DNA from: Phytophthora sp. 'mugwort'
Taxonomy: Eukaryota > Oomycota > Peronosporomycetes > Peronosporales > Peronosporaceae
Assembly (NCBI GenBank): GCA_033558025.1
Contig: JAUCEF010000017.1
Span: forward strand, 3,534,001 to 3,598,000
DNA length: 64,000 bases
Direction: 5' to 3'
The position numbers were made by a program, and so were the translations under genes. Shown one piece after another: positions 5,701-54,338 of the stretch. Under the pieces are notes generated by a model. The model ran no database searches. It was not told where the DNA came from and was given only the letters and a program-made list of their open reading frames with translations. Each line of letters opens with the position of its first letter. The stretch's first letter is position 1.

Positions 5701-5713
5701 TTGAAAATGATTG

Positions 5714-7065: not shown

Positions 7066-7420
7066 TGGAGAAGCGTCGAATAGGAATCTCAGACCCGTGG
7101 CAACGAAAGCTGGCCGATGCCTTACGAGAAAGCAAATGCAATGGGACAGCGTCGGTACAACTGGTCGACGGAACGGTGATACAAGATCCATGTAGATCTT
7201 GCTGTGATGATCGAGGACTTCGACAGCGTGGAGCAGTTACTTTCCTAGAGATGGACAAGTATGACCTGATCCTGGGCGTGCACGGGCTCGAGAAACATGA
7301 GCCATGAATCGATTTGGCGGAACAAAGCCATCGGGGCCAGTCGGCCGGCAGTTACTGGCAGAGCATTGGTGAGTCATATTCCCACCTCTGTCAGAAACTG
7401 GGGCGTCCGGAAGGACGCCA
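7066..7420 (+). pseudogene. Ty3/gypsy retropepsin-like fragment
   Basis: The plus-strand frame contains CNGTASVQLVDGTVIQ and, after an apparent shift, the flap/C-terminal signature LEMDKYDLILGVHGLEKHEP ending in a TGA at 7305. In a neighbouring frame the match continues (NKAIGASRPAVTGRALVSHI). The protease D(S/T)G active-site loop is absent, presumably lost at or beyond the proposed breakpoint near 7065. This is a relic of the same element as the two gag halves. Confidence 0.5.
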
Positions 7421-21769: not shown

Positions 21770-24700
21770 CTACTTGGGTACAGCGAAGACGAAGTTTCCC
21801 GTGACGACGCTGCCATCTTCCAGCACGACGTGATCCGGACATAGAAGATTCTGCGAGTTTGCTCGAACACAAAAGTCGCTGTTGAGACCTTGACTGTTAA
21901 CAGTCAGAACTCGCACATAGTATGGTTTCCCACTCTCCAGTCCACTGATGATCGCTGACGTACTAGTGACACTAACTTCCGTGGCCAAGGAGAAGTCGCT
22001 CGACGCAGCAGACTGTACCAAATAGCTCTCCAAACTCACACCGCCGGAAACCATATCCAATCCATTCAAAATGGGGCAACTCTGAGGAGCTTGTACCGTT
22101 CCAGCACATGGAATTCCATGAGCTGGTACACGTGGAGGCTGCCACACAACTTGGAGTTGACCGGTTGTAGCAGTGGCGGTCACTATGAGCGAAGTCGGTT
22201 TACCCGGTCGCGTAGTAGCTGGTACCATCGATGCAGGGGATGATGTCTGTGGCGTCCCTTTACCGCCGAGATTTGTGGCGAATACACGGACATAGTAGCG
22301 TGTACCAGGAGTGAGTAGTGTGATAGTATACGAGCGTTGGGTGACGTCGTTGATGACTGCTGTGGTGCTCGCTGCTACTGCTAACGAGTCGAAGGTCGAC
22401 ACAACGTCCCATTGTACTATATAACCCGAAACCGGATCACCGCCGTCGTCAAGAGGAGGCGCCCAACCCACCGTGAGCATCGTCGCACTCGTAACACCCA
22501 GCACCACTCGCGTCGGCGAGCTGGGTCTAGTGTACGGCTGTTGTGACGGTGGCGAAGATACTTGATACTGTCCAAATCCTTGTGAATTCCGAGCTCGAAC
22601 TCGAACGTAGTAGCGCGTCCCTTTTGTCAACGATGAGATAATCCGTCGGTACGGAGCACTCATCCCCGTCGTTAGCTGCACTAGCACCGAACTTGGCGAC
22701 GTGAAGCCTGAGTCCGTGGCGTATTGCACCTCGTATCCAGTGACGGTATCACCGCCGTCTTCATCCGGCGGATTAAAGAGCACCACTAACTCGGACACCG
22801 TCAGCACTGCGAGCGTCACCCCTGTCGGCGCACCCGGCGCCACCATGGGCTTTTGAGGTGCCGCCGCCAGCTTGGGTTCACCAAAGCCGACTTGGTTGTA
22901 CGCAAAGACGCGGACGTAGTACAACTGCCCCTTGTTTAACGCCCCCGATGTCGGAAGCACGTGGCTCCCAGTACAGGTCGACGGCTTGACGCCAGCCCGA
23001 ACGCGGGTAGGAACAACGTCGTACGTACCCGTGCAACCGACGCCGGTGCACGCCAAGTTAACATCTCTTGCTGCCAGTGAGAAATCGTCTCCACCATCGA
23101 GGAAAGTGATTGTCCACGTAAAGCCTCCGCTCGTCGCCATGGTACTGCGCGTGACTTCCACACCGCTGTTCAGCTGCGACAAGTGAGTGAGTTTCAACTG
23201 CATCGAGCCGGACTTTTCAAGCTGTTCGGTAGTACAGACGGTACTGGCACTGGTGCAGAATACCCCCGAAGACGAAGCTGTGACTGAGCCCGCCTCCTCA
23301 CTCGCTCCAGCGACGGCGTTCCATGGGATCGGGTCCGACACCTCGACGATGTTCTTCCGTGTGAGCTCCAGTTTGAAAGATCCGCTTGCTATGGGGTCCG
23401 TCGAGACGGCACTGGTCCTCACAGTCTGTACGAGCCAAACGGTCGGCGTCGGTGCGTTCGGGCACCATTGATCTTCCTGTCCGCGGTCGGTAAACAGCGA
23501 CGAGGCGTCGTACTCTACACGGTACATCCAAATAGGGCTGCCACCGTCGCTGGCTGGAGCTGCCCAGCTTGCCACTAACTGAGTCGAAACCCCTGGATTC
23601 ACATCGACGCTCACGTTTACCGGTGGACCCGGTACTTGTAATGGTGGCGTGATAACTACAGGAGACGACTGTGTACGGGGCCCAAGACCTTGCGGATTTC
23701 TTGCGGAGACCGAGATCAGGTAAGAATTCCCCGGCGTCAGGCCTGGGATCGACCATGTCGTCGTACTGGCGTCCAACGTCTCATAGTAACCGTACTCGAC
23801 TGCTGCTTCGCCTACTGTCGAGAGTTGGTCTATCGTTTGCATGGCTCCTGCTTGTTGTTTTAGGTTCTTTAAGACACTGGGCCACAGTCCTGGACACCCA
23901 CTCGTACCATCAGGTAGACACCCCAACCCGGTCGTATCGACGGCGTTATCCCCGTCCTTAATGAGCACAACCGCTTCCGTGGGTATGATCCTCGAAGCAT
24001 CCACGACCAACGGCATCAGGTTGCCCACAGTCGATTCAAACGTGATAGTCCAGACGTCGCCGAACCACGCGCTCCCACTCAGTAGCATCGTCTCGGACTT
24101 TACCGAGACTACTCCAATGGTAGGCAGAGCTTCTAGCGCCAGCTTCAAGTCTGCTGCACTCACTGTAGCCGACAAGTAATTAGTCCAAGCTGATCCCTTA
24201 TAACTCAGTCGGAAGTAGCCGCTCATAGTTAACGTTGCATGGTACGTGACCAGTACTTGAACCTCCTGTTTCCCTGGGAAAGTATTGGTAGCTGGAACTG
24301 CGATCCCGGACTGCACCTCGAACGTCCGTCCAGTAACATCCGAGCCTCCTGTGATTGTATCTTGCTCATACTGGAGTAGCGGCTGATCACCTGCGTTCAC
24401 GTTCGTATTGTCAAAAGTTATACTCCACTGGTATCCGTGCACTATGTTCACGGCCGTGCGAGACACTTGAATGTGTCCCAGCGGCACATTTGTAGCCGAC
24501 GCGAGACTCATCAGAGCGAAACGCAGGTCCGCAGCAGAGATATCCATAGGCAACGCAGCCGTCGTTAGCCCACCAAACGAGAGCTTAAAGGGGGAACTTG
24601 TGGGCTTAACTGTCCACTTGAGTTCAACCGTCTGGATCTCAGGTCGAGACGCAGAACGCCACCATTCCACCTTGTAGCCCGACACGGCCACGCCTCCATT

Positions 24701-27700
24701 ATCTGCCGGTTGTTGCCACGTCACGGTGGCCGAAGTGATCGGCGTCGCAGCAACCGTTAGTGTGCTGGCTTTGACCGTCGCTGGACCAGTTGGATGCCTC
24801 GTCGGGGTCTGAGACGTCGACGCGATCGTCGCGCGGCTGTATCCTATCGAGTTGACGGTCTTCACCTGCGCGTAATAGCGCGTGCCCGCTGTAAGCCCCG
24901 TCACGTAGTAAATACGTGGTCCACCGACGAAAAGCTCTGGGATTGATCCACTATTAACGGCAACTTCGACCGGGACGCTTCGCCTAGCCGAGTCGAACGT
25001 CGAGACCGTGTCCACATCGATCCAAAAGGCAGAAATCCCCGTGCCGCTTGTCCCTTTCCCGTCGCGCGTGGACGGTTGGATCTGCATTTCCAACGTCGCG
25101 GACGAGAACGGATTGAACAAGACCGACAGCGGCGGGTCTGGCACTCTGTCAGCTGTAGTCGCAGACAGCGGGTAGCTCCATTTCCGATTGTCAGGAGGCT
25201 CCCCACCCATTGCAACCTGCTGCACGGGCACCGAGTTGACTGCCGCGACTCGGACGTAGTACGTCTTTCCGGCCGTGAGACTTGGGATCACGTACCGGAA
25301 GGGCGGTGAGCCCTGAATCACGGCACCCGAGAGGATTTTAACTGGATACGTGTAGTAGTAAAGTGGATAGTTTTGGCCATTGAAACTGGCACAGCCATGA
25401 GCAGAGACAAGTTGAATTGACGTAAGACCTACCACGTCTGCTGTCAATACGCACGAATCGGTGGCGACCGTGAACTTTGAATGGTGAGTCAGCAAATTCG
25501 ACAGATCCATGGAGATCGACAGCACGTCGCCGTTCAGTTGCGTGGCACAACTGGCACAAATTTGCCGGCCGTGTTTGAACGTCGAGACAACGTCCCATTG
25601 TACGAGATAGGAGGAAATATCCTTGTTAAAATCTGGACTCACGTTCGTCGTCCCTAGCAGGGGCGGCGAGAAGAAAACCTCGAGCTCTTGACCGGAGACA
25701 ACGGCGAGATTCACATTGGACGGCGCAGCAGGGACTTGACTGGGTGTAGCCGTGACGAACCCGTCCACTGGTGCAGCTCCCTTTCCATTCGTATTGTAAG
25801 CGTGCACTTCAATGTAGTATTCCTGCCCCATCGTAAGTTTTTTGGAGGTTTGAGTCGCAAGATAGTAGCATTTCGCACAAGAACGACCGGCAATTTCGAC
25901 TATCGCGTCGATCGGATACAGTCTTGGGACTTTAGTGTTCATGTAACTCAATGGCGACGTCACACTCAGCAGATCCACAGTCCACACGTATCCTTTCGTC
26001 CACTCATAAACCGCGATACCTGTCTGTGTAGCTCCACGATACCCCACTTCACGTCCATTCAAATCGCCCAGATACAGCCGTGCCGGGTGCAGTCCAGGAG
26101 AATTCAGGTCTGTACGGACAGTGTACCAGTCGCCACCAATACGAATCTCGTACCCTGGAAGTCCATACGCGGCCGACTCAAACGTGCACGTCTCGCCAGC
26201 ACTACATGTCACAAAGATCTCACCTTCTGTCACGTCGACTTTGCCTGGAAGCGCTTGAAAGGATTTCTCACGGACGACGCCAACCGTTTGAATCGTATCG
26301 AGGTCTTCAAGCGCGTACCGTAGTTGATCAGCACTAGACTCGGCGTTTAACGGGCGCGTGTATTGGCCGTGGTAGCCTACTTGGAACGTTCCACTCATAG
26401 TCAGTGCGTGATCGTCGTTGTACACGCCGTCGATAGAAGCGTCCGTGTTGAGCACAATAGCGGCGTCAGCACCAACGTCTACGCCTTTTGTGATACTCAG
26501 ATTGATATCAGCGTATACTCGATCAAAGACGATCTTGATCTCAGAAGAGGTGGCAGTCTTACACAAGACACTTTGAGCTGCACTCGACACGCTGATACTC
26601 TCCGCTTCGACACCGAAAAGATCAAACAAACTCGTCTCGACGTCCGTCAGCGCGGCGTTAAAGGCCACGTCGGTGTATTCCCCATTGAAGGTGAACCGTA
26701 CCGTGCCCTGCGACGCCGTGCAAGTGAAAACGACCACCTCTTTACGGAAATTGGTCGCCCCCGTCTGGATTCCCACCACGGACGCCACGGAAATATCACT
26801 GGATTTAATCAATGGGAGCGCACCTGGTAACGTCGTGAACGTGAGCTGGAATTCCGCATTCACCGCCAACACCGTCGCAGCCGTCACGGCCGAGATATCG
26901 ATAGAGCCAACACTAGAGAGAGCTTCCAAAGCAGCTTCAAGACCGGCCATCGTGGTGGCACCGGCGGTTGTTCCTGCGGCTACTGCCGTAAGCGTTACGG
27001 TTTCTACGCCGCGGAACTTGAGCGTGAACGTCCCATCAGTGAGGATCGTGAGCTTCTGAACGTCACTGGGCGTAACCTGGAGCTTGTTTTTCGACCACGC
27101 GAGACTCGAAGCACTCGTCATGATACACTGCGTCCGGTACAAAATGTCGGCGTCCGAGATCATCACGTCCGCAGGATTAGCCGTGAACGACGACGACGTA
27201 TCCCATCGAACCTGGTACTTTGTGATAGGACTACCATTATCTGTCGCTGGCGGGTCAAACGAGAGCCACAGCTGGTCCCCCACTGCGTTCGAGCCCTTTG
27301 TGACCTCCTTCGTAAACACCACGGCACCTTCTCCCGTTAAGTCGCTGGCATTCCCTTGAAGAAGTGGTAAATCCCCCGAATTTAAGATATTATCCAGGAA
27401 AGTCACCGTCCAAGAGTATCCTCCTTCCTGATCAGGACCGACTCGCTCAACATTCACACGACCGATGACATCCAGAGCTTCCAGTTTTTCTTGCATGGAT
27501 GAGCCGTCTGCACTTGACTTCACTGCCGTATCGACGGCGTTCCAGTCGATCGATGCGGTTACTACGTTCTGATACGAGAGAGTAAACGTACCACCCACAG
27601 CATTCCCCTTACGTACTTCCTGTACTGAAATTTGGCTTTCCGTTCCAACTAATGAACTCGTGACTCGTAGTGTCGGGACGTCGCCGTTATAGTCCAGGAA

Positions 27701-30700
27701 GGTAATTGTCCACGTGTATCCGAACTGCGGGGACGGCTCCGACTGCTTCACTTGTACCGTCCCCACCCACGCGATCGTCTCTAATGCAGCTTTTACTCTC
27801 TCTGCGTTGGCGTCAAACGGAATCGGTGACGATGATTCAATGAGGAAGCTCCCAGTGAGGACGTTACCATCCGTCAGAGTATTCGTCTCGCATCCTGCGT
27901 GTGCTACTGGACTGAATGTCGCGGGATCCACCGCACAAATGAACTGCGGCAGGTTCCCGTACGAGTCCTGGAATGCCACTGTCCACATGTAACCTCCCTG
28001 TTCGTCTACAATCGACTGTGATACTAGAACGTCTCCAAAAACGGGCAACCGGTTCAGCTCGGCCGTCAGCTGCGCCGCTGTGGCGGACGCGACGTCGACA
28101 AACGTGTTCGCGGCGTTGAATCCGCCAGCGTCCAGGACCGTCGTTTCCACTTTGCCGTCGACGGCCGTCAGCGCGTTTTTGTCGATGGTCTGGAAGGCTG
28201 TACACCCCGTATCCGTAGCTAGCCACACCAGCGAAGGCGTGTCCCCGTATACCCCGTTGCCGTGGAAGAAGATGCGGTACACGAACCCGTTCGGAGCTTT
28301 GTCTGCATCCGTCTCTCGAGCAACATACACATTGTCAATGTTCGGCATGGCTTCCAGTATCGTTTCCATTGTCGAAGCTGAAGCATCAAACGGGATACAA
28401 GCCGACACTTTGTCCATGCCGAGATGGTTGAAGTGCAGCTTGTACGACCCGACCGCCACCGGTTCCGTCGCTGTCACGAGCACTTGTTGCACGGCCGTAT
28501 CTGTCCCCATAGCCGTGTCAGTATTCATGGCCACGTCGCAGTTCACAGCGACGCCACCCGTAGCCACGAACGTTTTGTCGTCACACACGAGTCGCTTCGT
28601 CTCGCCGGCCACGTCGTTCCCGACAAAGGTGATCTGGAACACGTATCCATAGTCGTAATCCTCCGACGCATCGCCGTCCCGCGTGACCACGACATCGTCC
28701 GTGGCAAGCGCCCCACCCACGACCGAAGTTAGCGCTGTTTGGATCGTGACGGCGTCTGCGTCCCACGCGATCGCTCCAGTCTTGGCTCCAAGAGTCTTGA
28801 ACGTGCCCTGGTTCGGCGCATCAGCTGCCACGTCCCTCGTAAAGAGCAACGTGAACGTTCCCGACGTGATCGCTGCTGCCGCCGAGATCGTCACCGTCTG
28901 CACAGTCGGGACACGGAAAGCGAACCGTCCTTGGAGACAGTTTCCTCCCGGACACGCCGACGGCAGCACAAACGTCCGCAAGGTTTGGACTTCCGCGACG
29001 CGAGCGGCCTCCGTCCTGATCTCTTGGATTTCCATGACGTGAGAAGCAGCTAGACGGATCTGTTGGACTTCTCGTTCATAAAGAGCAGGCCCCGACGCGA
29101 CATTCTGCACGCCCGAAGCTGTACTGCTCGGAACGATCGACGCGGGAGACGTGAACGTGCCAATACCGATATCCGACCAGGCCGCACCGTGAGCGAAGTA
29201 CTTGATCCCCGGACGGAGGTTGGACAAGACGTACGCGTTCGACGCCGATCCGGGGACAAAGTCGTCAATGACGTTCATCGTTCCTCCCACAAGTGCCGTC
29301 GTTTGTCTCCCAAGTTTCGGGACATTCCCCAACGCCGACTTGAATTTAATCGTCCAGATAAACCCGTTCACCTTGAAGACTTCCAGTTTCTGCTGTGCGG
29401 TGCTCGAGAGATATCGCGACGCCGTCGACAGGTCATCCTCTAGGGCGAGTGGGATCGAGCTGGCGGTTAAGGTCGCGACGCCGTCCACCCCTTGTCGTAT
29501 CGTAGAGACAATGACGTGAGTTGGTCCAATGTTTGGTGCCGTGGCCGTCACGACCTCGATCGTTTTCTGGTTGGCCCCCACCGTGGCGAGATTGCCAGCC
29601 ACGGACGTCCCGGCGAAGTAAATCGTGTACACGAAGCCGTGCGGGGCTAAATCCGCGGTGGTCCGTCTCGTTACGACGACGTCGCTGGCACCTACAGACA
29701 GCGGATTCAACGCTGTCTGCGCCGTCCTGGTCAGTTCCGTCTGTAGCGCCGTCTCGCTGGCATCCCACGGAATCGGATTCGTGTTCGTACCCAGGACGGT
29801 GAGCGTGTACGTGGCGCCAGACGCGATATTCTGGCTCGGGTTGGAGATAACCAGCTGCAGAACCTCAAACTGCTCGTCCAAAACGCGGAATTGCTGCGAC
29901 ACCGTGTACAAAATGTGTGGCGTGTCCGGTGCCTCGCCGTCGTACGCACTCGTAAGCGCAAATTCTCCTGTAGCTTCGCCCCCGTCTACTGCAGTGGCCA
30001 CCATAACGTTCGTTGCCGGCACCGTCGCTCCGCATGCCGCATTATTCTTCTGTACGACGCCAATCAAAGGGACATTTCCCGTCACAGCTTCCCCGACAAA
30101 CGTGATTCGGTGATGAAAACCTTCAGGCGACTCGAGAATGTTCGTATCCGTGGCAACAAGCACGTCACCAGCAACGCTCGACGTGAGTGTGACCAGTTCC
30201 TGGGCGATCTCGCTAGCCTGTGCCGTAAACAGGAGACAATTGGACTCGACGCCGCCCCGAAACGTGAGCGTAAACGCCCCCGTCGCCGTCCTGTCCGTGA
30301 TCGTCAGTATCTGCACCTCGCTGCTGCCTCCCAACTCGACCATATCAACCGCAACCTTCCGTACGCTCCCGCCCTTAGATTTCCATCCGATTAAACACAC
30401 ATTTTCCGAGGCAATATCCGCCTGTTTGAGCGTCAACGCCGGCACAAACGGAGTCGGTTTGTAGTCTAAAAAGAAGATATCATACGTGTATCCGGCAGCT
30501 CCTTGTTGGACGGTTTCCATCCTCAACGCTGGGTAAATACCCGCCAGAGCTCCAGCTGCACAAGCTCCTGTACCCACATTACCAACTTGCAACTGCGGGA
30601 CGTCACCAAGTACAGCGCTAAAGCCTCCAGTGATGGGACCTTGGAACTGGATGAGGTATTCGTAGCCATATCCCCATTGTGCCTGTCCATCGCCCACCCG

Positions 30701-36700: not shown

Positions 36701-39700
36701 GCTGTTGTGTGCTCGGACTCGGACGGCGTATTTCTCACCCGTCTTCAATCCTTGGAGAACATAACGTAGTTGGCCCGGTACGGCCACATCTGCCGCGACG
36801 CCAGCGACGCCGTTCCGTTCGCAATACATTAAAGGTTGAACGCCAGCGAGCGTACGTGCAGCGAGTATTCGAGCCCCAGGTCCTTGGAGCTCCGTGCCGT
36901 CGACACTTAAGAGCGAAATGTCCTCCTTAACCTCCGATAGAAACGTGATAACCCAGCTAAACCCGTAGCCGTTGGCACGTCTCGTGACCGCGACAGCTCC
37001 AATCGTGACGAGACTTTCGAGAACCGTCTGCATCTGCAATGCCGAAATATTGTGCGGCATGGGCGGCGTTGTATCGGACAGGCCGTGACTGGCAAACGCA
37101 ACTCGAAACGTCCCACTGATCGGCTGAAGCCCCTTTTGAACCGAGTCGACGACAATCCCAGGATGGTCACCAGTCCAGCTGTCACTTGGAGACACCTGAA
37201 GGAGCTCTTGAGGGCCGACATGACCCGCTAGAAACGTAATCTCCCACTCGTACCCGTACGCGCTCTTGAATACCGGCGTAGGGACCGAGACGTCGAGATT
37301 TCCGTCTAGTTCAAAGGTCGTAGCACCAGCAGCGACTACAGCTGAGATCGTACGTCGTTCTCCCGCGATCCAAAGTATATCGTCCTTCTTGAGCTTACTG
37401 TCGTCTATTGACGACGACGACGACGTGTGAACGGTGGCAATATTGCTCGTCACCGTCACTAACAACCCTCCGACGACTCGAGTCGAGTCTGTTCTTGAAA
37501 CGTGAACCGTTCCAATGGTGGAGAGCCGCTCCAAACGCTCCTTGACTGAGTTCAAACCAACGGCGGCGGCATCCCATCGGATATTCTCCGTCACTTCTCC
37601 ACCGAACGACAATTTAAAGTATCCGTTTAACTTCCCAGAAGCATCAAAGTTCGCGAGCCGCTCGATCTCTGGAAGGCCGGCGCCGGCCGACGTTGTGATG
37701 GTTTGTTGCTCCTGCATGCCTTCTGCACGATACCATTCGACCTTGTACTTGTCGACACTGCACGCTTGTCCACCGACGGCAGACGCGCTCCAAGCCACTG
37801 CTAGCGTTGTCTTATCCACCACAGTGGCAGTAACAGACGGCGGAGGAGGCGGTTGGACGCACGTGACGGCACTGGCGAGCGGGGACGTCGCCGACCCGAA
37901 GCCGTCCGCGTTGTACGCCATCACGTGGGCATAGTATTTGACACCCGATCTCAGACCTGGAAGCGCGAACCGGAACGGGTCCGAACCCGTGACTTTATTT
38001 GCTACACGCACTATAGAGCTCGTACCCGTGACCTGTGAAGCTGCCACGGTCATGGTGAAGATGTTGCCGGCTCCGACCATTTCCTCACCGCGAAGATACG
38101 CAAACGTGACGGACCAAATCGCAGTATGGAGCGCCGCGTTCCGTACGGCCTTGGTGACTTTAATCGAGTACGACGAGCTGGTCGCTTGCAACGCTGCTTG
38201 CATCTCCAATGCCGAAGCACCCACGTCGATCAGGCCCGTCGTCTTGCCATGAAAAGTCAGAGCGAACGAACCAGCTACCGGTGAGACGCCGTCAGTGTAG
38301 ATCTCTTGGACTTCGTGGGTAAAGTCGCCGGTCGCCAGGTCACTGAAGCCCGGGACCCGTTCGAGGACGCGGATGCGAGGGAAATCGCCCGTCAACTGCC
38401 GTCCGTCCGCGACGAGTGGAGCCAAGTCGCCGTGGTTGTGTAGGAATGTGATCTTCCAAGTGTATCCCCACGACACCGGCGTCCGCGTCACCTTAACCGG
38501 GTCGACCGCCACATTGGACGTCTCTGTGATGATAACCAGTGCGTCTGTCATGTCTTCTACTGAGCAGTCGAACGGCAAGGCGGACGTCTTCCGACCGCCC
38601 CACGCTAGCGTAAACGTGCCTCCTACACCCACCGCAGAGCGGTAACTTGTGGTCACTTCCTGTACTTCGACTGTTTCTTGAATAGTGGCCACGCCGTAGT
38701 CACGACTGGAACTCTCGAAATTCGGAGACGAGTCCCATTCGACCCGATACATGGTCACTTTGGCACCTCCGGAATAATACGGCGCCCAGTAGTTCAACGA
38801 GAGCCACGTGGGGCCGTGGAATTCACCCAGAGCGACACCCGTGGGTGGAGTAGGGACCACAGAGGTTACCGTTGTCTCAGTCTGGAAAAACGTAACCGAG
38901 TCGCTTAAACCTCTGGAATTCTGGGCAAAGATACGGAACGCATACGCTTGACTACGGTCGAGGATCAGCGTCTCTTGCTTAGTGACAGCGACGGCATTAT
39001 TGCCTTGAACAGATGCTTGTAAGTTAGCTGTGGCTGGCGTGACTACAAGTAGCGGTAGTTTCTTCATAGGGTACGTCCCCCAGAACGAAATGGTATGAAC
39101 GACAGTGCCGCCGTTCACTGTCGAGACGACACTGACGCCGTCCACGCTGTCCAGCGTCTCCAGTGCGTCCTTGAGGTCATCGTTGAGAGTCGCCCACGGT
39201 AGATTCGTGACGGTCGTACTACCAGCATTTACGACCGTCTCGCCGGCAAAGCTCAAGGTATACGGCGTCGCTATTGCGACGTCATTGACTTCCAGAAGAA
39301 TCGTCTGCGTGGACGCCGGGTTCCCTACATTGACAACATTTTTAGATAAAGACTTGGGGCTCCTGATACCGATTCGAGCGTCTGTGCCGCGCCAATCGTG
39401 GTCTGGAATGACGTCAATAGTGTCGAGGTTTCCATCATATGAACGGAAGACGAGGTCCCATTTCCGTCCATTTGAGACGTGAGACGCACGTGTCCTGGTG
39501 ATCGTCTCTGTGAAGCTTCCTGTTACTTCAATATACCTCGGATCGACCGCAATGACCGAGTATTTCTTCATATCAGCCGACACTGAGGGAAGCCAGAGAT
39601 CGTCTCCAATATCAACAAGGTTCGTCAGGTCTTCGGTTGTCCGGAGTGTATTGTCAAAGATGTATACACTTGGAGCACCAGCCACGACATTTTCACCCGT

Positions 39701-42700
39701 ATACGGTATATCGGTAGTGACTTCTACTCCAGACACGGCAGTGATTGTGAACTTTATGGTATCAATGAAAAAGACGTTATTGACACTAAATCCGTGGTCT
39801 ACTGGGAACACGAAATCGCTTTGTCCTTTTGTAACGGCAATGACTTGCCCAAGATGATGAATTCCTACATATCCAGGCAATATCTTCGTCTGTTTGGTGA
39901 TTAATCCCGCCAGGACTTTATAGTTCTGTGACGCCGTTGTACCAGGAAACGCACTCGTTAAAGTCACATCAGTACAAGACATCGACTGGATAGTATGCGA
40001 CGGGTTTGAGCCGATCTCCAGCATTTCTCCAATAGCGAGAAACCGCGTCGGATCAATTAAAATCCCATCAAGTTGAATATTCGTCAATATTTTACTGCCT
40101 CCTGTGGCGTCGGCGGTGAGTTCTAAAGAATAAACGCCGACATCATCTGTCTTATCACCGAGAGCTACCACTGAATCTGCAATTGTCAGTTTCTGTAGTT
40201 CTTGAACAACTTTCATATGTGTAGCTGAATACCCAATCGCTTCTGTCGTTTCTCCACTTATTGTCAATCGAAACGAGCCACTAATATCATCTTGCTTGGC
40301 ATCCGTGAAGACGGTAACTGTAGGGTAGACGCTTATAACCGCGTTTTGGCCTGTTAACCGCGAGTGTTGAATGAAAATGGCATCCTGAGCGTCTTCTTGC
40401 TCCTGTGTGAACGTCACATGCCACGCCTTCCCGTAGACACCATACTGACTCACACTGACACGAACTGTAGCTGAAGTAGTGATCGATTCGATAGCGTCAC
40501 GCATCTCCGCAGCTCCAGTGTATTGAAATGACAATGGCAAAGTCACTTTACCCATATATGATAAGGTGAAGGAACCTCCGATAATACGTAACGCGTCTGC
40601 GAGGATTGTCTGGATCCTAACTTGTTCCTTAAAGCATGCACCTTCATATTTTATAGTATGAACTTGTCCATATACTGGTAGATTTGCTGGTGTCCAGGGA
40701 TCACAAATACCAGCTCCAAATTCCGAGAGGTCGAACTGCAATGTCGGCCACTGACGTGTGGGATATTGACCCCAGAAACGCACTTGGTAGTCGTGAAAGT
40801 CTAAAATCTTTAACGAACGAGCTTCGTTACTGAAAAACTCACAGGATCCGACAACAGTCACAGAGATCTTCGTGGTTCCTGTTGCTGGCGTGGTATTAAT
40901 GATAAATTCGCATGAATGTCTGGAGAAATCATTCGGGTTCCGACTAACTTGGATAATGGTATTCTCGACTAAAACACCGGTTTCGAGACTGGTGAAGGGA
41001 CTAGCAACCGAGAGTTCGCCGGTGTTATCATAATCCGTCACTTTTGACGTCGCAGAACCCGATAGAACCGCCACTTTGAAGGCACGAACCTCTTCCACAG
41101 TCACTTTGGACACGAGTTCGAGAGCTTCTAACTTCGCTTTCATAGTACTAGGCGTGTCTATATTCCCCAACGTGATACAGTCTGTTGTCTCACTCCCTAA
41201 TTGAAGCTTAAACGTGCCTCCTGTAGCTGTTGTCGGTGCAAACAGTCGAACAACTTGAACCGATGAAGGTGCTCCCACGACGTACGTATCGCACACTTGC
41301 TCGTCACTGTTAACCTCAAAGAATCCATAATGATTAGCAGAGACAGCAGTTTGGCCAGTCTTGATCCCAAATGTCGTTGAAGCCAAGGCTGCACTTGTTG
41401 TGACCGAAGTCAGTGATGAAATGAACTGAAGTCCTGGATATTTCCTATCGATAATATCTCCAACGTCATTGTCGAAAGAAATCGTCCACTCATATCCATA
41501 CGGACCATGTTGAGTCCCCGAGTCGTCAAGCTTAAGTACCCCCGCATTGGCCGTAAAGTCTTGTACTCCATGTCCTGGTTCTACGTCGATTGTCGTACTA
41601 CCTTCAGCGGGCTGCACTCTCACAATGAATCGTTTCCCGCCTACATCAATGCGTTCTCCCTTTGTGAGCATCTCGCATTGAAGAGCAGTCAGTGGAGCCA
41701 TCGTGACGTGGTTATGAGCGGCTGACAAGCTCGTCCCAGAGCCATCCACGACCACATACAGCGCTCGTGTGACGGATACCGGACGTACTGAAGGAAGACT
41801 GTTGAAAGCTCTTTGAAGAGCGCTAGCGGTCGTGTGTACTGACAGCAATGACGTGACGTCGTCTCCATACTGCAAGCGAAAAGTACCCGTGACGTCGTTC
41901 TCGAGCGAACTAAACACGAAAACTCTTTTAGTCGCAACTTTTCCGAATGATTCACCCACTGCATACTCAATTAAGTACTTGGAGACAGGATCTCCATGAT
42001 CTACTGGACTGGAGAGACGAAGCTCCAGTTGGGAACCAGATAGCGGCCACATTCCATTGACACTTGGAGGATCAGGTGACGTCGAGACAGCCGTTAAAAG
42101 AGGTAACGCACCTCGTCCAATCTGCTGCAAATCTGTGGTACTTGTGCTGTACCCATTCTCGTTCCGAGCAAATGCACGCACATAGTACTCTTGACCTGGA
42201 TCCAGTCCTTGGATAATTGTCTCGAAAGCGACATCCACACCTTGTACAACTTCTAAAATCTTGACATTTACTCCCGTACCTTTCAGTAACGAGTCATCAT
42301 CGACTACAAATAATGGCAAGTCTCCAAGATTCGACATAAAAGTGATTGTCCACGTCGCTCCAAAGTCGTCATTTGCTCTTCGAGTCACGTGTAAGCGCCC
42401 AACTGTAGCGAGGTTTTGAAGCTTGGTCCGTACGTCGGCTGCCGTGTCGTCAAAGTTGATCATAGCTCCCCCCACAGACTGGAAACTAACAGCAAACGAG
42501 CCGCTAATATCATCAGCCGTTGCCGTCGTAGAGATCGTCTGCACTTCATTTATCACTCCGCTAACCTCTTGAGAAGCGACAATTGCATTAGCCGCATAAT
42601 CTCCTTGAATCCCCGTCAAAGTTGTCACGAAAGTTTCGTCTCTTATGACCGACGCTGTCACTGTGCAAGTAGAACAGACGGCACCATATACATCCACAAA

Positions 42701-44032
42701 GTTCATAGTCCCTGGCTGCTTATCGACACGAAGGTTTACGTTATCAAGAGATTGGAACGTAACATACCAACGATATCCGTTCGTTCTCGTGGGGCCAATA
42801 CGCGACACGTCAATGGACCCGGCACCTGGTAAAGCACCGAGCGCTCGCTTCATCTCGTTTGCTTCTACGTTCACACTCACCGTCGTCTTTTTCCGCGCGA
42901 ATGCTGTTATATGCAGTGTTGTATCACCAGTCCAAATCGCATCAAGTGTCATACTGTTGGTAGCGATATTCGTTACTTTGAAAACTTTGGCACCGATTTG
43001 AATCTCTTCATCTACTGCAATTTTAAGGCTAAAATCACTCGAGGTGGTGATTAAATTGGAGGTTTTTGTGACTTGAACGTTGCCCAGCGCTGTATCCATC
43101 AGTTCAATTGCAGCATCCGCAGCTCCACGAATATGATAAGAATCTAACGGTAATTCAGAGTCTGTAAACGGAGCGGTGGCGTGTACCGTGAATTCTTCTC
43201 CTTTGATCCGCACTCGGTCTCCTCGATTCACTCGTCCCAGCATTGACGCGCTTGTTTTCACTGTTCTCGTTCCTGGGGCTACGTCGGCTGTAATCCCAGG
43301 GTTGGTATCCACCCAATCTCCTTCAAAACCTATGGATAAATCAAACGTCCCTCCTAGTACTTTCATATCCGAACTGTCGGTCGAGATTATCTCCCACACT
43401 TCTGGATAAAATCCAGATACTCCCGTGGTAACGAGAGCTCCCTCAAATGACAGTACATGACTCGGTGGTCGAGTAGCTTGACATCCCGTCGTGCTCCCCA
43501 TCAATAAGTTCGACTGCTGTCCACTGACGAGATATGCGCCATCAAATGTGATAGTGTAGACGAATCCGTTTTTCGCAGCGCTGTAGAACGACCTCGAGAC
43601 CGCGACGCTGTCCACATTGGGCAGTTGTTCCAGCGCCGTCTCCAACTCCACGTCACTGGCATTCCATGCGATACACGACGTCACTTCAGTGCCTAAACGG
43701 TTTGTGAACGTGGCCTTGTAGCTGCCCGCGAGGATGGGGCCATTGGCCACCACCGAGAACATCTGCACCTCGTCGATGCGTCGTGCTACCTCCACCTTGT
43801 ATCCGAATACGGGCGCCCCATTGACGCCTTCAGGTTTGACATTTAATGGCTTGGAGAATTGCACGCGTATCGACGTGTCGCTCGCGGGTGACACGAACAC
43901 TTTGTCGGGCGGGCCGGGGACGTCTCCTGGGGCGAAAAACTCGGCACTAACCACGACAAGCACCAGCATTACCAGCAACATCCCCAAGCGCATTGTAGAG
44001 ACCCAGAGCCGTCGAAATCGGCCTCGATTCAT
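21770..44032 (-). CDS. Giant secreted fibronectin-III protein with nested repeat modules
   Basis: One intron-free frame of 7420 codons on the minus strand. Residues 14-31 (MRLGMLLVMLVLVVVSAE) form a signal peptide or signal anchor; Met14 is an alternative start giving a more typical leader. About 15 fibronectin type III folds can be recognised by their Pro-rich openings (PGPP, PPSV, TPPTGV), a Y-x-V-x-W strand and a YYVRV.A.N..G close. They cluster at both ends, beginning near residues 38, 650, 1730, 2060, 2465, 2567 and 2688, then 5584, 6100, 6296, 6415, 6799, 7062, 7167 and 7272. Between opening and closing strands many carry inserted ~100-residue modules (GTFTLSFGG..T..I.W.A, then GYxWTITF), about 35 in all. 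No C-terminal membrane anchor was seen, and the protein ends abruptly after FVFAVPK. Two RGD tripeptides occur. An extracellular, adhesive or structural role is inferred only. Confidence 0.85.
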   Translation of the reverse strand: MNRGRFRRLWVSTMRLGMLLVMLVLVVVSAEFFAPGDVPGPPDKVFVSPASDTSIRVQFSKPLNVKPEGVNGAPVFGYKVEVARRIDEVQMFSVVANGPILAGSYKATFTNRLGTEVTSCIAWNASDVELETALEQLPNVDSVAVSRSFYSAAKNGFVYTITFDGAYLVSGQQSNLLMGSTTGCQATRPPSHVLSFEGALVTTGVSGFYPEVWEIISTDSSDMKVLGGTFDLSIGFEGDWVDTNPGITADVAPGTRTVKTSASMLGRVNRGDRVRIKGEEFTVHATAPFTDSELPLDSYHIRGAADAAIELMDTALGNVQVTKTSNLITTSSDFSLKIAVDEEIQIGAKVFKVTNIATNSMTLDAIWTGDTTLHITAFARKKTTVSVNVEANEMKRALGALPGAGSIDVSRIGPTRTNGYRWYVTFQSLDNVNLRVDKQPGTMNFVDVYGAVCSTCTVTASVIRDETFVTTLTGIQGDYAANAIVASQEVSGVINEVQTISTTATADDISGSFAVSFQSVGGAMINFDDTAADVRTKLQNLATVGRLHVTRRANDDFGATWTITFMSNLGDLPLFVVDDDSLLKGTGVNVKILEVVQGVDVAFETIIQGLDPGQEYYVRAFARNENGYSTSTTDLQQIGRGALPLLTAVSTSPDPPSVNGMWPLSGSQLELRLSSPVDHGDPVSKYLIEYAVGESFGKVATKRVFVFSSLENDVTGTFRLQYGDDVTSLLSVHTTASALQRAFNSLPSVRPVSVTRALYVVVDGSGTSLSAAHNHVTMAPLTALQCEMLTKGERIDVGGKRFIVRVQPAEGSTTIDVEPGHGVQDFTANAGVLKLDDSGTQHGPYGYEWTISFDNDVGDIIDRKYPGLQFISSLTSVTTSAALASTTFGIKTGQTAVSANHYGFFEVNSDEQVCDTYVVGAPSSVQVVRLFAPTTATGGTFKLQLGSETTDCITLGNIDTPSTMKAKLEALELVSKVTVEEVRAFKVAVLSGSATSKVTDYDNTGELSVASPFTSLETGVLVENTIIQVSRNPNDFSRHSCEFIINTTPATGTTKISVTVVGSCEFFSNEARSLKILDFHDYQVRFWGQYPTRQWPTLQFDLSEFGAGICDPWTPANLPVYGQVHTIKYEGACFKEQVRIQTILADALRIIGGSFTLSYMGKVTLPLSFQYTGAAEMRDAIESITTSATVRVSVSQYGVYGKAWHVTFTQEQEDAQDAIFIQHSRLTGQNAVISVYPTVTVFTDAKQDDISGSFRLTISGETTEAIGYSATHMKVVQELQKLTIADSVVALGDKTDDVGVYSLELTADATGGSKILTNIQLDGILIDPTRFLAIGEMLEIGSNPSHTIQSMSCTDVTLTSAFPGTTASQNYKVLAGLITKQTKILPGYVGIHHLGQVIAVTKGQSDFVFPVDHGFSVNNVFFIDTIKFTITAVSGVEVTTDIPYTGENVVAGAPSVYIFDNTLRTTEDLTNLVDIGDDLWLPSVSADMKKYSVIAVDPRYIEVTGSFTETITRTRASHVSNGRKWDLVFRSYDGNLDTIDVIPDHDWRGTDARIGIRSPKSLSKNVVNVGNPASTQTILLEVNDVAIATPYTLSFAGETVVNAGSTTVTNLPWATLNDDLKDALETLDSVDGVSVVSTVNGGTVVHTISFWGTYPMKKLPLLVVTPATANLQASVQGNNAVAVTKQETLILDRSQAYAFRIFAQNSRGLSDSVTFFQTETTVTSVVPTPPTGVALGEFHGPTWLSLNYWAPYYSGGAKVTMYRVEWDSSPNFESSSRDYGVATIQETVEVQEVTTSYRSAVGVGGTFTLAWGGRKTSALPFDCSVEDMTDALVIITETSNVAVDPVKVTRTPVSWGYTWKITFLHNHGDLAPLVADGRQLTGDFPRIRVLERVPGFSDLATGDFTHEVQEIYTDGVSPVAGSFALTFHGKTTGLIDVGASALEMQAALQATSSSYSIKVTKAVRNAALHTAIWSVTFAYLRGEEMVGAGNIFTMTVAASQVTGTSSIVRVANKVTGSDPFRFALPGLRSGVKYYAHVMAYNADGFGSATSPLASAVTCVQPPPPPSVTATVVDKTTLAVAWSASAVGGQACSVDKYKVEWYRAEGMQEQQTITTSAGAGLPEIERLANFDASGKLNGYFKLSFGGEVTENIRWDAAAVGLNSVKERLERLSTIGTVHVSRTDSTRVVGGLLVTVTSNIATVHTSSSSSIDDSKLKKDDILWIAGERRTISAVVAAGATTFELDGNLDVSVPTPVFKSAYGYEWEITFLAGHVGPQELLQVSPSDSWTGDHPGIVVDSVQKGLQPISGTFRVAFASHGLSDTTPPMPHNISALQMQTVLESLVTIGAVAVTRRANGYGFSWVITFLSEVKEDISLLSVDGTELQGPGARILAARTLAGVQPLMYCERNGVAGVAADVAVPGQLRYVLQGLKTGEKYAVRVRAHNSEGYGKATSLASGFQTPRSTALAPERVELIALSSKLLKATWQVPTSDGGARITSYEVQWDTSASFASPSSGILHVAPSDDAPFYLNIPVPSVTRYFVRICAVNNQGKGEFGTSSPSSLTPLDRPPGRPEAATATVLSSYAILVEWKPSSTEKDDYGGDGGLPISQYMVEWDHSRAFDSPAAFALVDGAKRSYVIGGDDAVTGVRSEELDAGSTYSVRVTAFNAKGASAPRPTTPSSVTMMDQTPSAPQRFQLTGRTATSVTADWTNPLYDGGASLQSYKIEWDEQEDFTSGQRSSGTVPIVREMQAIVLQNDVVNEEQFVDVTVKVTNEEQVVRTSFTGVDEVQVIKTTNNVVVDEVQTIVTSATDRNEVQELRLDGDDVDEIQAVRTSVPEVLEVQTLTVGVARVSEIQTISLTLPGAFASPSTVIGGTLYFSFDSSICTHCVKKMYQRTDNLVPSLKDDVAGETIAENALIALANIDAVQVTRSKNNAGPDLTYVYTITFTGLEVAGNVPVIAIDAAVTVSGAAVPGLPTQATEATPGSEVAYDPLAIFTVTYTCESYSDPYALTTFSLPCTPHAAARLCAGCVTAFDGVTFAVAYDLRSSAYVASGAKLLAGVCSFEAGLVTKTASSTTIDVAVNDVGVYCSQFLGKSLDLYETPQISRDIPLKTTATTIASGSVVGGLLTGAIDAVTVARAEAVDGTFVGSVYTLTFRKRSGTLPLLACTAAGSVSCTVGRTAGQVGSMITGTFQLGLVSEADATLVSPSPQYTSDIPWDASESDLKRILEDVTQNAKKVFGTVAIKRTVSSPTGNKWSGGFTWQITFTSRGGDIPRMVARTVDAVTNVKTLTSTHDPTNAIPTVSVEDATHPFNPFAHSRDGNQVMGSIMLKLGDVASPVSCTIGVDTSLDALDLRVRDTTLETFLKTNLKIPSLEIMRSAATQARGFTWTISFSDASTGGDIGLLQTVSTQLTGKNVRSGVYETVKGNELGGTFQLTFNGETTEPIGFAAEASEMQTKLNKLNTIKPSSVLVTRGPPTSPQVRGYTWFVTFYSSVWADPTSDHSNGVLGNWKSSSRASWEDVWESGYSKAWGRHVGHTFRLQCLTDGLSTSANDGSQRCVPSVFITGVGPLRGTFTISIDSTAATYAHMAVNSVVTSTAIAHNAWASKEESGNTGTSVEEILESMANVGDVAVSRSSVDVKTGGYEWTVTFLRDASHAFLPCEQLEEVAGSLLCNAPGDVPLLGFDTTLLTGANSVLTTTLIKEGAILRGDFTDFRVQGDAGMAARYTMSASCSNAAGTSCTVAAFAIKSGADTLDDFLVPGDRFTVGTFSSCIFDVTSVTATSVEIKTTGTANICATMNAGNAGAATALGISLRLPWNADERMVARALEAGATHAGRKVHVKRTVHGKYGEMSWLVRFIANPTYTPPGAGELPDITTLFAAESGSSKYQVTVTQVTPGSKGLSGSFLLDFHASSYGPREILFDEEPDRLQRKLNEMNTVGHVTVKRFKYPSSSTGCDDALCSGGWEEQPVLKPGTRGGYRWRIRFMQATGDYEGSTFPPGSGDVASLSATRSSLQGTSVSVDVYTNIDGSSPTRGTFTLNTTEKQTPVLPYASSAEAVKLGIEAMDLFGHVDVTHGFLLTQKIPGATATLAQDGVTATITGVDDIRQYLAPTDRIRFGATSASNLAGTNGDAPLTGVIDTSRVMTSARSPIVTATTVSSTKMLFPGMQLRIDGLNYHVQRSGHEVQTLTVTRPLATWSSTYIADSFKLEMTRGGLTKPPTTCLRFNEDATTVQAAVFSLLFAFDSSAKSEDVVVSRVGPMTTATRKGYVYSVYFFGDSVAGDVATLKALDCAGIETTTVDIEVVTHGGKVPHQRLTLATDAGTVEDATGFYKLGLGTKESDCIPWGASASEVETVLEDTLLTGDVVVTRSGTGTSQTELQRLRLTANTQVTSTVGLFQVQFTFNGQICATSCLKYGLSAVDLEAALNGFANVNTLNSIHHINVTRVGDGQAQWGYGYEYLIQFQGPITGGFSAVLGDVPQLQVGNVGTGACAAGALAGIYPALRMETVQQGAAGYTYDIFFLDYKPTPFVPALTLKQADIASENVCLIGWKSKGGSVRKVAVDMVELGGSSEVQILTITDRTATGAFTLTFRGGVESNCLLFTAQASEIAQELVTLTSSVAGDVLVATDTNILESPEGFHHRITFVGEAVTGNVPLIGVVQKNNAACGATVPATNVMVATAVDGGEATGEFALTSAYDGEAPDTPHILYTVSQQFRVLDEQFEVLQLVISNPSQNIASGATYTLTVLGTNTNPIPWDASETALQTELTRTAQTALNPLSVGASDVVVTRRTTADLAPHGFVYTIYFAGTSVAGNLATVGANQKTIEVVTATAPNIGPTHVIVSTIRQGVDGVATLTASSIPLALEDDLSTASRYLSSTAQQKLEVFKVNGFIWTIKFKSALGNVPKLGRQTTALVGGTMNVIDDFVPGSASNAYVLSNLRPGIKYFAHGAAWSDIGIGTFTSPASIVPSSTASGVQNVASGPALYEREVQQIRLAASHVMEIQEIRTEAARVAEVQTLRTFVLPSACPGGNCLQGRFAFRVPTVQTVTISAAAAITSGTFTLLFTRDVAADAPNQGTFKTLGAKTGAIAWDADAVTIQTALTSVVGGALATDDVVVTRDGDASEDYDYGYVFQITFVGNDVAGETKRLVCDDKTFVATGGVAVNCDVAMNTDTAMGTDTAVQQVLVTATEPVAVGSYKLHFNHLGMDKVSACIPFDASASTMETILEAMPNIDNVYVARETDADKAPNGFVYRIFFHGNGVYGDTPSLVWLATDTGCTAFQTIDKNALTAVDGKVETTVLDAGGFNAANTFVDVASATAAQLTAELNRLPVFGDVLVSQSIVDEQGGYMWTVAFQDSYGNLPQFICAVDPATFSPVAHAGCETNTLTDGNVLTGSFLIESSSPIPFDANAERVKAALETIAWVGTVQVKQSEPSPQFGYTWTITFLDYNGDVPTLRVTSSLVGTESQISVQEVRKGNAVGGTFTLSYQNVVTASIDWNAVDTAVKSSADGSSMQEKLEALDVIGRVNVERVGPDQEGGYSWTVTFLDNILNSGDLPLLQGNASDLTGEGAVVFTKEVTKGSNAVGDQLWLSFDPPATDNGSPITKYQVRWDTSSSFTANPADVMISDADILYRTQCIMTSASSLAWSKNKLQVTPSDVQKLTILTDGTFTLKFRGVETVTLTAVAAGTTAGATTMAGLEAALEALSSVGSIDISAVTAATVLAVNAEFQLTFTTLPGALPLIKSSDISVASVVGIQTGATNFRKEVVVFTCTASQGTVRFTFNGEYTDVAFNAALTDVETSLFDLFGVEAESISVSSAAQSVLCKTATSSEIKIVFDRVYADINLSITKGVDVGADAAIVLNTDASIDGVYNDDHALTMSGTFQVGYHGQYTRPLNAESSADQLRYALEDLDTIQTVGVVREKSFQALPGKVDVTEGEIFVTCSAGETCTFESAAYGLPGYEIRIGGDWYTVRTDLNSPGLHPARLYLGDLNGREVGYRGATQTGIAVYEWTKGYVWTVDLLSVTSPLSYMNTKVPRLYPIDAIVEIAGRSCAKCYYLATQTSKKLTMGQEYYIEVHAYNTNGKGAAPVDGFVTATPSQVPAAPSNVNLAVVSGQELEVFFSPPLLGTTNVSPDFNKDISSYLVQWDVVSTFKHGRQICASCATQLNGDVLSISMDLSNLLTHHSKFTVATDSCVLTADVVGLTSIQLVSAHGCASFNGQNYPLYYYTYPVKILSGAVIQGSPPFRYVIPSLTAGKTYYVRVAAVNSVPVQQVAMGGEPPDNRKWSYPLSATTADRVPDPPLSVLFNPFSSATLEMQIQPSTRDGKGTSGTGISAFWIDVDTVSTFDSARRSVPVEVAVNSGSIPELFVGGPRIYYVTGLTAGTRYYAQVKTVNSIGYSRATIASTSQTPTRHPTGPATVKASTLTVAATPITSATVTWQQPADNGGVAVSGYKVEWWRSASRPEIQTVELKWTVKPTSSPFKLSFGGLTTAALPMDISAADLRFALMSLASATNVPLGHIQVSRTAVNIVHGYQWSITFDNTNVNAGDQPLLQYEQDTITGGSDVTGRTFEVQSGIAVPATNTFPGKQEVQVLVTYHATLTMSGYFRLSYKGSAWTNYLSATVSAADLKLALEALPTIGVVSVKSETMLLSGSAWFGDVWTITFESTVGNLMPLVVDASRIIPTEAVVLIKDGDNAVDTTGLGCLPDGTSGCPGLWPSVLKNLKQQAGAMQTIDQLSTVGEAAVEYGYYETLDASTTTWSIPGLTPGNSYLISVSARNPQGLGPRTQSSPVVITPPLQVPGPPVNVSVDVNPGVSTQLVASWAAPASDGGSPIWMYRVEYDASSLFTDRGQEDQWCPNAPTPTVWLVQTVRTSAVSTDPIASGSFKLELTRKNIVEVSDPIPWNAVAGASEEAGSVTASSSGVFCTSASTVCTTEQLEKSGSMQLKLTHLSQLNSGVEVTRSTMATSGGFTWTITFLDGGDDFSLAARDVNLACTGVGCTGTYDVVPTRVRAGVKPSTCTGSHVLPTSGALNKGQLYYVRVFAYNQVGFGEPKLAAAPQKPMVAPGAPTGVTLAVLTVSELVVLFNPPDEDGGDTVTGYEVQYATDSGFTSPSSVLVQLTTGMSAPYRRIISSLTKGTRYYVRVRARNSQGFGQYQVSSPPSQQPYTRPSSPTRVVLGVTSATMLTVGWAPPLDDGGDPVSGYIVQWDVVSTFDSLAVAASTTAVINDVTQRSYTITLLTPGTRYYVRVFATNLGGKGTPQTSSPASMVPATTRPGKPTSLIVTATATTGQLQVVWQPPRVPAHGIPCAGTVQAPQSCPILNGLDMVSGGVSLESYLVQSAASSDFSLATEVSVTSTSAIISGLESGKPYYVRVLTVNSQGLNSDFCVRANSQNLLCPDHVVLEDGSVVTGNFVFAVPK
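28955..29071 (-). repeat. 13-residue EVQ repeat array 2 in the giant protein
   Basis: Residues 4988 to about 5026 hold three units (EVQQIRLAASHVM, EIQEIRTEAARVA, EVQTLRTFVLPSA) of the same 13-residue type, directly after a fibronectin-like closing strand (KYFAHGAAWSDIG). Confidence 0.75.
35444..35797 (-). repeat. 13-residue EVQ repeat array 1 in the giant protein
   Basis: Residues 2746 to about 2863 are nine tandem units of 13 residues (one of 14). Each begins E-(V/I/M/E)-Q followed by alternating hydrophobic residues, for example EVQTIVTSATDRN and EVQELRLDGDDVD. Each resembles the first strand of the larger ~100-residue module, as if that strand alone had been reiterated. Confidence 0.8.
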
Positions 44033-53200: not shown

Positions 53201-54338
53201 GGCAGTGAATGAACATCTTTTACTACATCTAGTGAACCTACTGGAGCTGAAGCACATTGAGTATCTTTTCCACTGGCCAGAGGTCGTTGGTGGAGGAAGC
53301 AACGCCGTGAAAGCGCTTGTGCATGCCACTGTAAAGGTCCTGGGGATTCCGTTTGCGCACAGTGTGTCAGAAGAGCTCCTTGTGGATACACAAGAAATCT
53401 TATATGATGCGAAATGTGTCCAGAAACTTCTTGGCGTTCTTCAGTTTGTTTTTTCGACCAAAGAATTGCATCTAGAAGCATCCGTGCTAGAGTTACCGAT
53501 CAGCTTTTTGTCACGACTCGTGACAAGCTCTACACACTTTGGCTCGCAATTCGTGGAAGCCAATGGGATGCTGGTCATTAGAGAGTGTGGAATGCTCAGT
53601 ACTAACTGCTCGCCTTCCTTGATCATCGACACGCTGCTTATCGTGAGTCAACTGGCCCGGAGCTCCCAGACAAACTACGACTGTATTCAAAAGGCTGATC
53701 TCTTCCCAGCGTTTTACGAGTTAATGCAGCATCCAGAGGCGATGGTGCGAGCGAAGGCGTTGAACTGTATCGGCAACTTATGCCGGCACTCGACACTCTT
53801 TTACCAGTACTTGATCACACCAATCAATGGGAAAACATCCAACACCGTTCTGGCAGGTATGATTCGTGGCTTGTCCGACTCGGATAATTATGTTCGGCGC
53901 TTTGCGTGCTTTGCCATCGGCAATGCAGCCTTCCACAACGGGGATCTGTACGATGCACTGCGTCCTGCGATTCCTCCTCTCGTCCAGAATCTTCACAATG
54001 ACGAGGACAAAACGCGTTCGAATGCTGGTGGCGCGCTTGGGAACCTCGTCCGCAACTCGGATGGACTGTGCCAGGATCTCTGCACGCATGAAGCTCCGTG
54101 GGAGCTCTTCGAGTTGGCTATGACGGAGACTAGCACGGCGTCGAGGCGCATCGTACTCTTTTCACTTGGGAATTTTTGTGTCTATCCTGAATGTTTCAAT
54201 TTCCTCGTTGCAGCGGAGCCGGGGTTTGTTGAAGAGCTGGAGCATCTGTATGATGAAGTGGTCGCTGACGAGGTTTCACGACGAAACATCCGCCGCATCC
54301 TTGCGAAGATTGAGGCGCTGGACGAAGAGGAAGAGTAG
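50243..54338 (+). CDS. Fused/STK36-like serine/threonine kinase
   Basis: Two exons: 50243-50395, an 82 bp intron, then 50478-54338, giving 1337 residues, close to human STK36 (about 1315). The kinase domain spans residues 4 to about 254: glycine loop GEGSFGKV (11-18), catalytic Lys33, C-helix Glu51, HRDMKPQN with Asp125, DFG at 143-145 and APE at 168-170, so all key residues are present. The rest is helical, ending in armadillo/HEAT-like repeats ([47 protein letters not shown]). The start is fixed by [16 protein letters not shown] and the in-frame join to [20 protein letters not shown]. Fused-family kinases act in the central-pair apparatus of motile cilia outside animals' Hedgehog signalling, which suits an organism with flagellated zoospores; this role is inferred from the family. 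Confidence 0.9.
50396..50477 (+). other. 82 bp intron in the Fused-like kinase gene
   Basis: Donor GTAGGT at 50396, branch-point-like CTAAC at 50442-50446, acceptor GGCAG ending at 50477. Removing it joins LRQE to INILRRLNH in phase 0 and restores the kinase C-helix and following strands, which is strong support. Confidence 0.9.

Follow-up and report, generated by a model that had tools for sequence, protein, structure and literature searches.

Domain insertion usually is a single event in one domain, and single insertions into fibronectin type III (FN3) folds are of a known kind: FnIII-2 of the insulin receptor, with its insert domain, is an FN3 broken by a long insert. Titin, a cytoplasmic protein, combines FN3 domains with Ig domains and a kinase and is not known to have arrays of the module described below. 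Its A-band FN3 tandems (PDB 3lpw, 8bnq and 8g4l) are packed head to tail. Tubular mastigoneme subunits (Tubular mastigoneme protein, OCM5 and OCM6; 9ufe) are chains of 366-723 residues, each with one stretch matching a ~100-residue module. Mycobacteriophages Bxb1 and Patience, compared here for the module alone, also match it in domains of the capsid, tail tube and tail tip (9d93, 9d94, 9d9w, 9d9x and 8giu), the matched stretches being terminal in the chain or arranged one after another. The locus analysed here, from Phytophthora sp. 'mugwort', shares this module with the mastigoneme subunits, but encodes 7420 residues with an FN3 backbone. Whereas the insulin receptor has one insert in one FN3, arrays of the folded module interrupt many FN3s of this giant protein.

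The window, i.e., the whole stretch of 64,000 nucleotides under analysis, derives from a genome of 86.3 Mb and contains on its minus strand a frame that begins with ATG and runs for 7420 codons with no internal stop (Table 1). Its nearest relatives in the protein database are from oomycetes, and 24 relatives of 7108-7597 residues were found to cover 99-100% of residues 1-5000. The end of the giant falls at about the same position in 16 of 18 relatives, the exceptions being P0037 and P0039. A paralog of 7413 residues (G000:C17:3161305-3183663, hereafter P17) lies on the same contig about 370 kb away and is 69% identical over its length. The divergence of the two copies is patchy, with dS of 0.04-0.21 over residues 1-1500, 0.12 over residues 5501-6000 and at least 1.3 elsewhere, which looks like gene conversion across this distance. 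On this sequence evidence the frame is a real gene, and the intron-free frame of 7420 residues described in the initial annotation is borne out by one open frame in the genome and by the 24 relatives. That it would be a chance or decayed open frame without a protein, or several genes, is extremely improbable: such a reading has against it the near-complete coverage of residues 1-5000 by relatives of similar length, the dN/dS of 0.08-0.32 to the paralog in 13 of 15 bins (bins with finite dS), and the 7479-residue P0039, which is labelled mmetsp, 'type:complete', as from a transcript collection, though its start and end deviate.

The module, FN3 and a small S domain of ~54 residues were each given a profile built by iteration and seeded on the window protein, which biases the labels towards it; relatives and Pfam's own half matches serve as checks. 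With these profiles, we read the giant as comprising 15 FN3 domains, nine interrupted and six complete, together with 40 module matches, 35 of which are enclosed by the two halves of an interrupted FN3. Eight interrupted FN3s hold, in order, 3, 6, 2, 2, 16, 3, 2 and 1 modules, while the ninth (opening from 25735) holds a ~70-residue non-module stretch; the five other module matches (residues 5041-5581) are outside any opening-closing pair. Some modules carry the S domain inside them, and the one within the first module of FN3 no. 4 constitutes a third nesting level. In the relative P0020, the module at 2200-2243 has no S domain, a natural absence which may be a gene-model artefact. Two runs of short strand repeats (E/D-V/I-Q, 13-14 residues each) were also seen, at 35474-35680 and about 28985-29071 (residues 4988-5016); they resemble repeated first strands of the module.

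Pfam matches are dominated by FN3, the other models above cut-off being FN3-like or Ig-like folds on FN3 stretches. PF00041 (Fibronectin type III) scores above its gathering threshold (cut-off 25) with 87.6 bits for residues 1-2500, 100.1 for 2301-5000 and 206.1 for 4801-7420, and uninterrupted strands A-G are lacking in nine of the 15 domains. Positions 42-77 of the Pfam fn3 model match window 36680-36784 (25.7 bits), where FN3 no. 4 closes, and positions 1-42 match 35813-35971 (28.6 bits), where FN3 no. 5 opens, with two complete fn3 matches in between; these half matches provide a check that is independent of our own profiles. For all eight automatically labelled openings the next FN3 element is a closing half, an outcome equalled in none of 20000 rounds in which the FN3 elements were permuted. 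The opening at residues 652-745 was automatically labelled complete, its alignment having run on into the module, and is read here as an opening. Folds starting near 38850, 37850, 35970, 24790 and 23635 had initially been annotated as an opening, then modules, then a closing strand; we found openings at 38857, 37852, 35977, 24799 and 23635, that order at all five, and four further interrupted folds with openings from 43921, 42079, 27286 and 25735.

Table 1. Features of the giant gene and its predicted product, in window coordinates.
Feature	Position	Strand	Basis
Whole gene, 7420 aa, about 787 kDa	21770..44032	-	ORF, 69%-identical paralog, relatives
Signal-peptide-like N-terminus, residues 1-30	43943..44032	-	hydropathy, relatives
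FN3 no. 1, opening match	43700..43921	-	own FN3 profile
Within FN3 no. 1, three modules (residues 86-599) and two small S domains	42236..43777	-	module and S profiles
FN3 no. 1, closing match	42137..42277	-	own FN3 profile
FN3 no. 2, opening match (extends into first module)	41798..42079	-	profile; several relatives carry the opening label
Six module matches inside FN3 no. 2 (residues 699-1687)	38972..41938	-	module profile, relatives
FN3 no. 2, weak closing match (13.8 bits)	38900..39040	-	own FN3 profile
FN3 no. 3, opening match	38636..38857	-	profile and model
Two modules within FN3 no. 3, placed in C'-E loop by the model	37982..38674	-	profile and model
FN3 no. 3, closing match	37883..38023	-	profile and model
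FN3 no. 4, opening match	37682..37852	-	profile and model
Two modules inside FN3 no. 4; S domain 37304-37435 in first	36839..37717	-	profiles and model
FN3 no. 4, closing match	36680..36778	-	Pfam, profile, model
Two complete FN3 domains	36002..36637	-	Pfam, profile
FN3 no. 5, opening match	35756..35977	-	Pfam, profile
Six short strand repeats (E/D-V/I-Q, residues 2785-2853)	35474..35680	-	sequence reading
Sixteen module matches inside FN3 no. 5	29264..35488	-	profile, relatives
FN3 no. 5, closing match	29144..29275	-	own FN3 profile
Five modules not enclosed by an opening-closing pair; A-B loop of FN3 no. 6 possible	27290..28912	-	profile, junction sequences
FN3 no. 6, opening match from about strand B	27143..27286	-	own FN3 profile
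Three modules inside FN3 no. 6	25907..27067	-	module profile
FN3 no. 6, closing match	25772..25855	-	own FN3 profile
FN3 no. 7, broken by ~70-aa non-module stretch	25229..25735	-	own FN3 profile
Complete FN3	24818..25147	-	own FN3 profile
FN3 no. 8, both halves with two modules between (23939-24643)	23660..24799	-	profiles
FN3 no. 9, both halves with one module between (23009-23440)	22865..23635	-	profiles
Three complete FN3 domains	21878..22837	-	own FN3 profile

Structural support comes from one well-modelled segment, residues 1718-2464, which consists of two interrupted FN3s. Its AlphaFold2 model aligns 193 of the 195 residues of a titin FN3 pair, from model residue 7 to 745 (Foldseek whole-chain TM-scores being about 0.1), and neighbouring FN3s are joined as in the titin A-band tandems, which are also the best sequence matches. 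The model supports the packing of opening and closing into one FN3 sandwich with the modules in the C'-E loop, in both domains of this segment; strands from both sides of the modules come together, in agreement with the initial proposal that the modules occupy a loop of the fold. We infer that the other interrupted FN3s are built like the modelled pair and that the modules protrude sideways, giving a brush ~15 FN3 beads long as opposed to a string of some 55 domains. A simple tandem would instead make openings and closings separate or circularly permuted small folds, with the modules in line along an ordinary string. A closing half and the next opening half are indeed contiguous over ~100 residues, so that a permuted sandwich is conceivable, and titin profile matches cross this junction; in titin, however, one FN3 ends and another begins there, and likewise in the giant. 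The alignment of the model over nearly the whole titin pair, a first opening that follows the signal-like start with no preceding closing half, and the complete FN3 domains that sit between interrupted ones all argue further against the tandem, which we regard as very unlikely. A repeated domain-in-domain architecture is, by contrast, very probable.

FN3 no. 6 may hold the five modules at residues 5041-5581 in its A-B loop. A conserved VQNVxxGYAL-like stretch precedes them and GDQLWLSFDPP follows, junctions which fit this placement; the AlphaFold2 model of residues 4966-6095 has a pLDDT of about 30 at the FN3 ends.

The element order of the giant can be written nMMMc (n or F) M6 c nMMc nMMc FF n M15-16 c M5 nMMMc nc F nMMc nMc FFF (n, opening; M, module; c, closing; F, complete FN3). 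A protein search for the arrangement in oomycetes, as the initial annotation had suggested, revealed this order in full-length relatives whose module numbers vary slightly; their identity is about 60-70% in Phytophthora and falls to about 40% in Saprolegnia and Aphanomyces. When the order test was applied to 17 more of 96 labelled sequences, at most 8 of 20000 shuffles equalled the observed order in both paralogs and in 12 of 15 relatives; it was weaker in P0052 (Discosporangium), P0053 and P0054 (3587-3762 residues), with 2390, 322 and 130 of 20000 shuffles, respectively. Relatives outside oomycetes come from diatoms, a xanthophyte and a brown alga, and a looser layout, with openings followed by modules and closings, was seen in proteins of Discosporangium, Thalassiosira and Conticribra as well as from unnamed sources. 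Four of the 93 proteins P0001-P0093 (P0079, P0080, P0088 and P0089) have modules and zero FN3. A frame of 10602 residues on another contig of the genome contains the same domain kinds plus PA14 and filamin domains. Public records call some relatives 'Titin'. A titin-like sarcomere role was rejected given the signal-like start and the lack of any kinase family; unlike titin with its Ig domains, the giant has only Ig-like-fold models that overlap FN3 (Ig_Rha78A_N, 28.3 bits, cut-off 27.4).

A profile of 50 modules (from 73 selected, those of P17 left out) matched three 9ufe chains in the PDB, OCM5 (E = 1e-6), Tubular mastigoneme protein (1.2e-6) and OCM6 (4.3e-4), for which an earlier profile of 22 modules had given 1.1e-4, 1.7e-5 and 0.014, respectively; its only other PDB matches at E < 0.001 were two mycobacteriophage proteins. 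No single Pfam family matched more than two of the 50 members (best E 0.0022, Big_13, one member), three pieces spanning the ORF had zero NCBIfam matches at E <= 0.05, and phmmer with residues 1-2500 and 4801-7420 retrieved no 9ufe chain at E <= 0.01. A mastigoneme fragment had zero matches in the giant's own genome, an empty answer which proves nothing by the tool's own statement. Elsewhere in this genome, long frames of 8646, 6895, 3778 and 1966 residues have 23, 5, 6 and 2 module matches, respectively, and zero FN3 matches, and the idea that modules are confined to FN3 was rejected on this account. Given its presence in phages and in these four frames, the kinship of the module with hair subunits says little about function.

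Windows of 19 residues with mean hydropathy of at least 1.9 occur in the giant only at starts 9-20, and most of 18 relatives show a hydrophobic start followed by an FFxPxDVPGPP-like motif. N-x-S/T sequons number 10, against a mean of 49.5 and a minimum of 34 in 200 shuffles. All 16 FN3-type giants tested have fewer sequons than every shuffle, with D-x-S/T and N-x-A/G/V unreduced, and two relatives of the neighbouring kinase used as controls show no depletion (4 and 6 sequons, small numbers). Among the four module-only frames the 3778-residue one alone is depleted, the 8646- and 6895-residue frames not being so, and sequon lack as a trait of all module proteins was rejected. Judging from sequence, the giant is probably secreted, the signal-like start and the sequon depletion being consistent with the extracellular location initially proposed. 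Sequon lack, we infer, may reflect selection against glycans on a protein that would pass through the ER and later be tightly packed.

A FUSED/ULK-like kinase frame with HEAT repeats (50520-54338, plus strand) neighbours the giant, and in Pythium oligandrum and Lagenidium kinase and giant have consecutive locus numbers, so the pair seems kept together. The kinase was used as a control for database coverage in a phylogenetic profile, from the best 120 of its 6238 matches; the searches covered proteins of about 1375 residues and more, names within 90% clusters being hidden and species non-independent. Two such searches did not find the giant in any of the seven non-swimming downy mildews with a kinase among those 120 (Peronospora effusa, P. 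destructor, P. belbahrii and P. matthiolae, Peronosclerospora sorghi, Hyaloperonospora arabidopsidis and Bremia lactucae). It is present in 19 of the 27 other named oomycetes with a kinase among the same best 120 of 6238 (18 for this subfamily only); Pythium insidiosum has a giant of the 10602-residue type only, and the zoosporic Plasmopara halstedii has two giants. The giant was not found in the remaining eight, Phytophthora pseudosyringae, P. nicotianae, P. lilii and P. kernoviae, G. splendens, A. stellatus, Achlya hypogyna and Albugo laibachii, some of which may hide in 90% clusters. The one-sided Fisher probability, kinship ignored, is 0.0012 for 0/7 versus 19/27 and 0.0021 versus 18/27, again for kinases among the best 120 of 6238. 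As judged against the flagellum-associated genes of oomycetes, on the same 120 matches, the giant was not found in any species that lacks zoospores (0/7), and its presence among the other species extends to 19/27, with no giant found in Albugo. Zoospores have been lost in the individual Peronospora species named above and in Peronosclerospora. Zoospore loss in Hyaloperonospora, Bremia and most Peronospora is described in PMC3471859, and that of Bremia also in PMC6570648.

In the mechanism that we propose, the giant would be produced in sporulation and then enter the secretory route, its FN3 beads giving a tough cable and its module loops lateral contacts. That it forms a secreted, comb-shaped scaffold, with a putative structural role on the outside of the zoospore and most likely in connection with flagellar hairs (mastigonemes), seems to us evenly poised; a function as zoospore scaffold, perhaps of those hairs, has slightly less than an even chance. 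Flagellar hairs are favoured because of the kinship of the module with solved hair subunits and the loss pattern. Centric diatom sperm bear hairs. Diatoms as such have lost mastigonemes according to PMC11412368, yet diatom relatives of the giant exist, which counts against a hair scaffold. Albugo laibachii, which keeps zoospores (PMC3471859) and whose kinase is in the database, also speaks against a hair scaffold, as the giant was not found there in the searches described. The main text of that flagellar gene study mentions neither 'fibronectin' nor PITG_01932, the relative P0005, which PMC12905231, the one main text to name it in the open-licence PMC literature searched, records only as too long for a localisation program.

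The giant might instead serve zoospores and cysts as an adhesive or coat. It would then be kept in peripheral vesicles until encystment, when it would be released and form an extracellular matrix that glues cysts or zoospore aggregates. Its absence from the non-swimming mildews, which are not known to form zoospore cysts, would fit this too. Expression of SPRG_03974, the Saprolegnia parasitica relative P0032, is 0.03 in mycelium, 6.66 in sporulating mycelium, 16.44 in cysts and 8.30 in germinated cysts (Table 1 of PMC5771568). The rise on sporulation counts for the proposed zoospore scaffold; the excess in cysts over sporulating mycelium counts against a hair scaffold in that it fits a cyst coat or adhesive equally, and the same source proposes the protein as a possible component of the hair bundles of cysts. 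Seventeen fibronectin-like genes are expressed in P. parasitica zoospores, and anti-fibronectin stains aggregate material, as reported in PMC7409359. An adhesive or coat accords less well with the module's kinship to hair subunits and with the sequon lack, which would be unlike a typical adhesive glycoprotein. Also against it are the algal relatives (diatoms, xanthophyte and brown alga), from organisms that are not known to make oomycete-type cysts. We consider an adhesive or coat possible, at clearly less than an even chance.

FN3 and the module are known kinds of domain; a conserved, repeated FN3 domain-in-domain comb was not found described in the main texts of the open-licence PMC literature searched. 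Here one loop of a common fold appears to have received arrays of a single kind of module, domain after domain, on a plan kept over 7,400 residues across oomycetes, and the comb would offer a natural test of the tolerance for large folded inserts during folding. If the tie to hairs is true, a giant candidate part would be named for the structure that defines stramenopiles, and hairs and phage tails would use the same building module. The most complete account is a comb or bottle-brush of phage-tail-type modules inserted repeatedly into the same loop of successive FN3s, with up to three nesting levels (FN3, module, S domain) and all modules inside FN3s (no. 6 taking the five apparent exceptions into its A-B loop); stramenopiles would have inherited it as the large scaffold of their flagellar hairs and lost it with swimming; as a whole it is tentative and rather unlikely to hold in every part. 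Elsewhere in the window are a DDE_1 transposase-like frame of 225 residues (57499-58176, minus strand) and an ankyrin-repeat and FYVE zinc-finger protein (61166-62539, plus strand).
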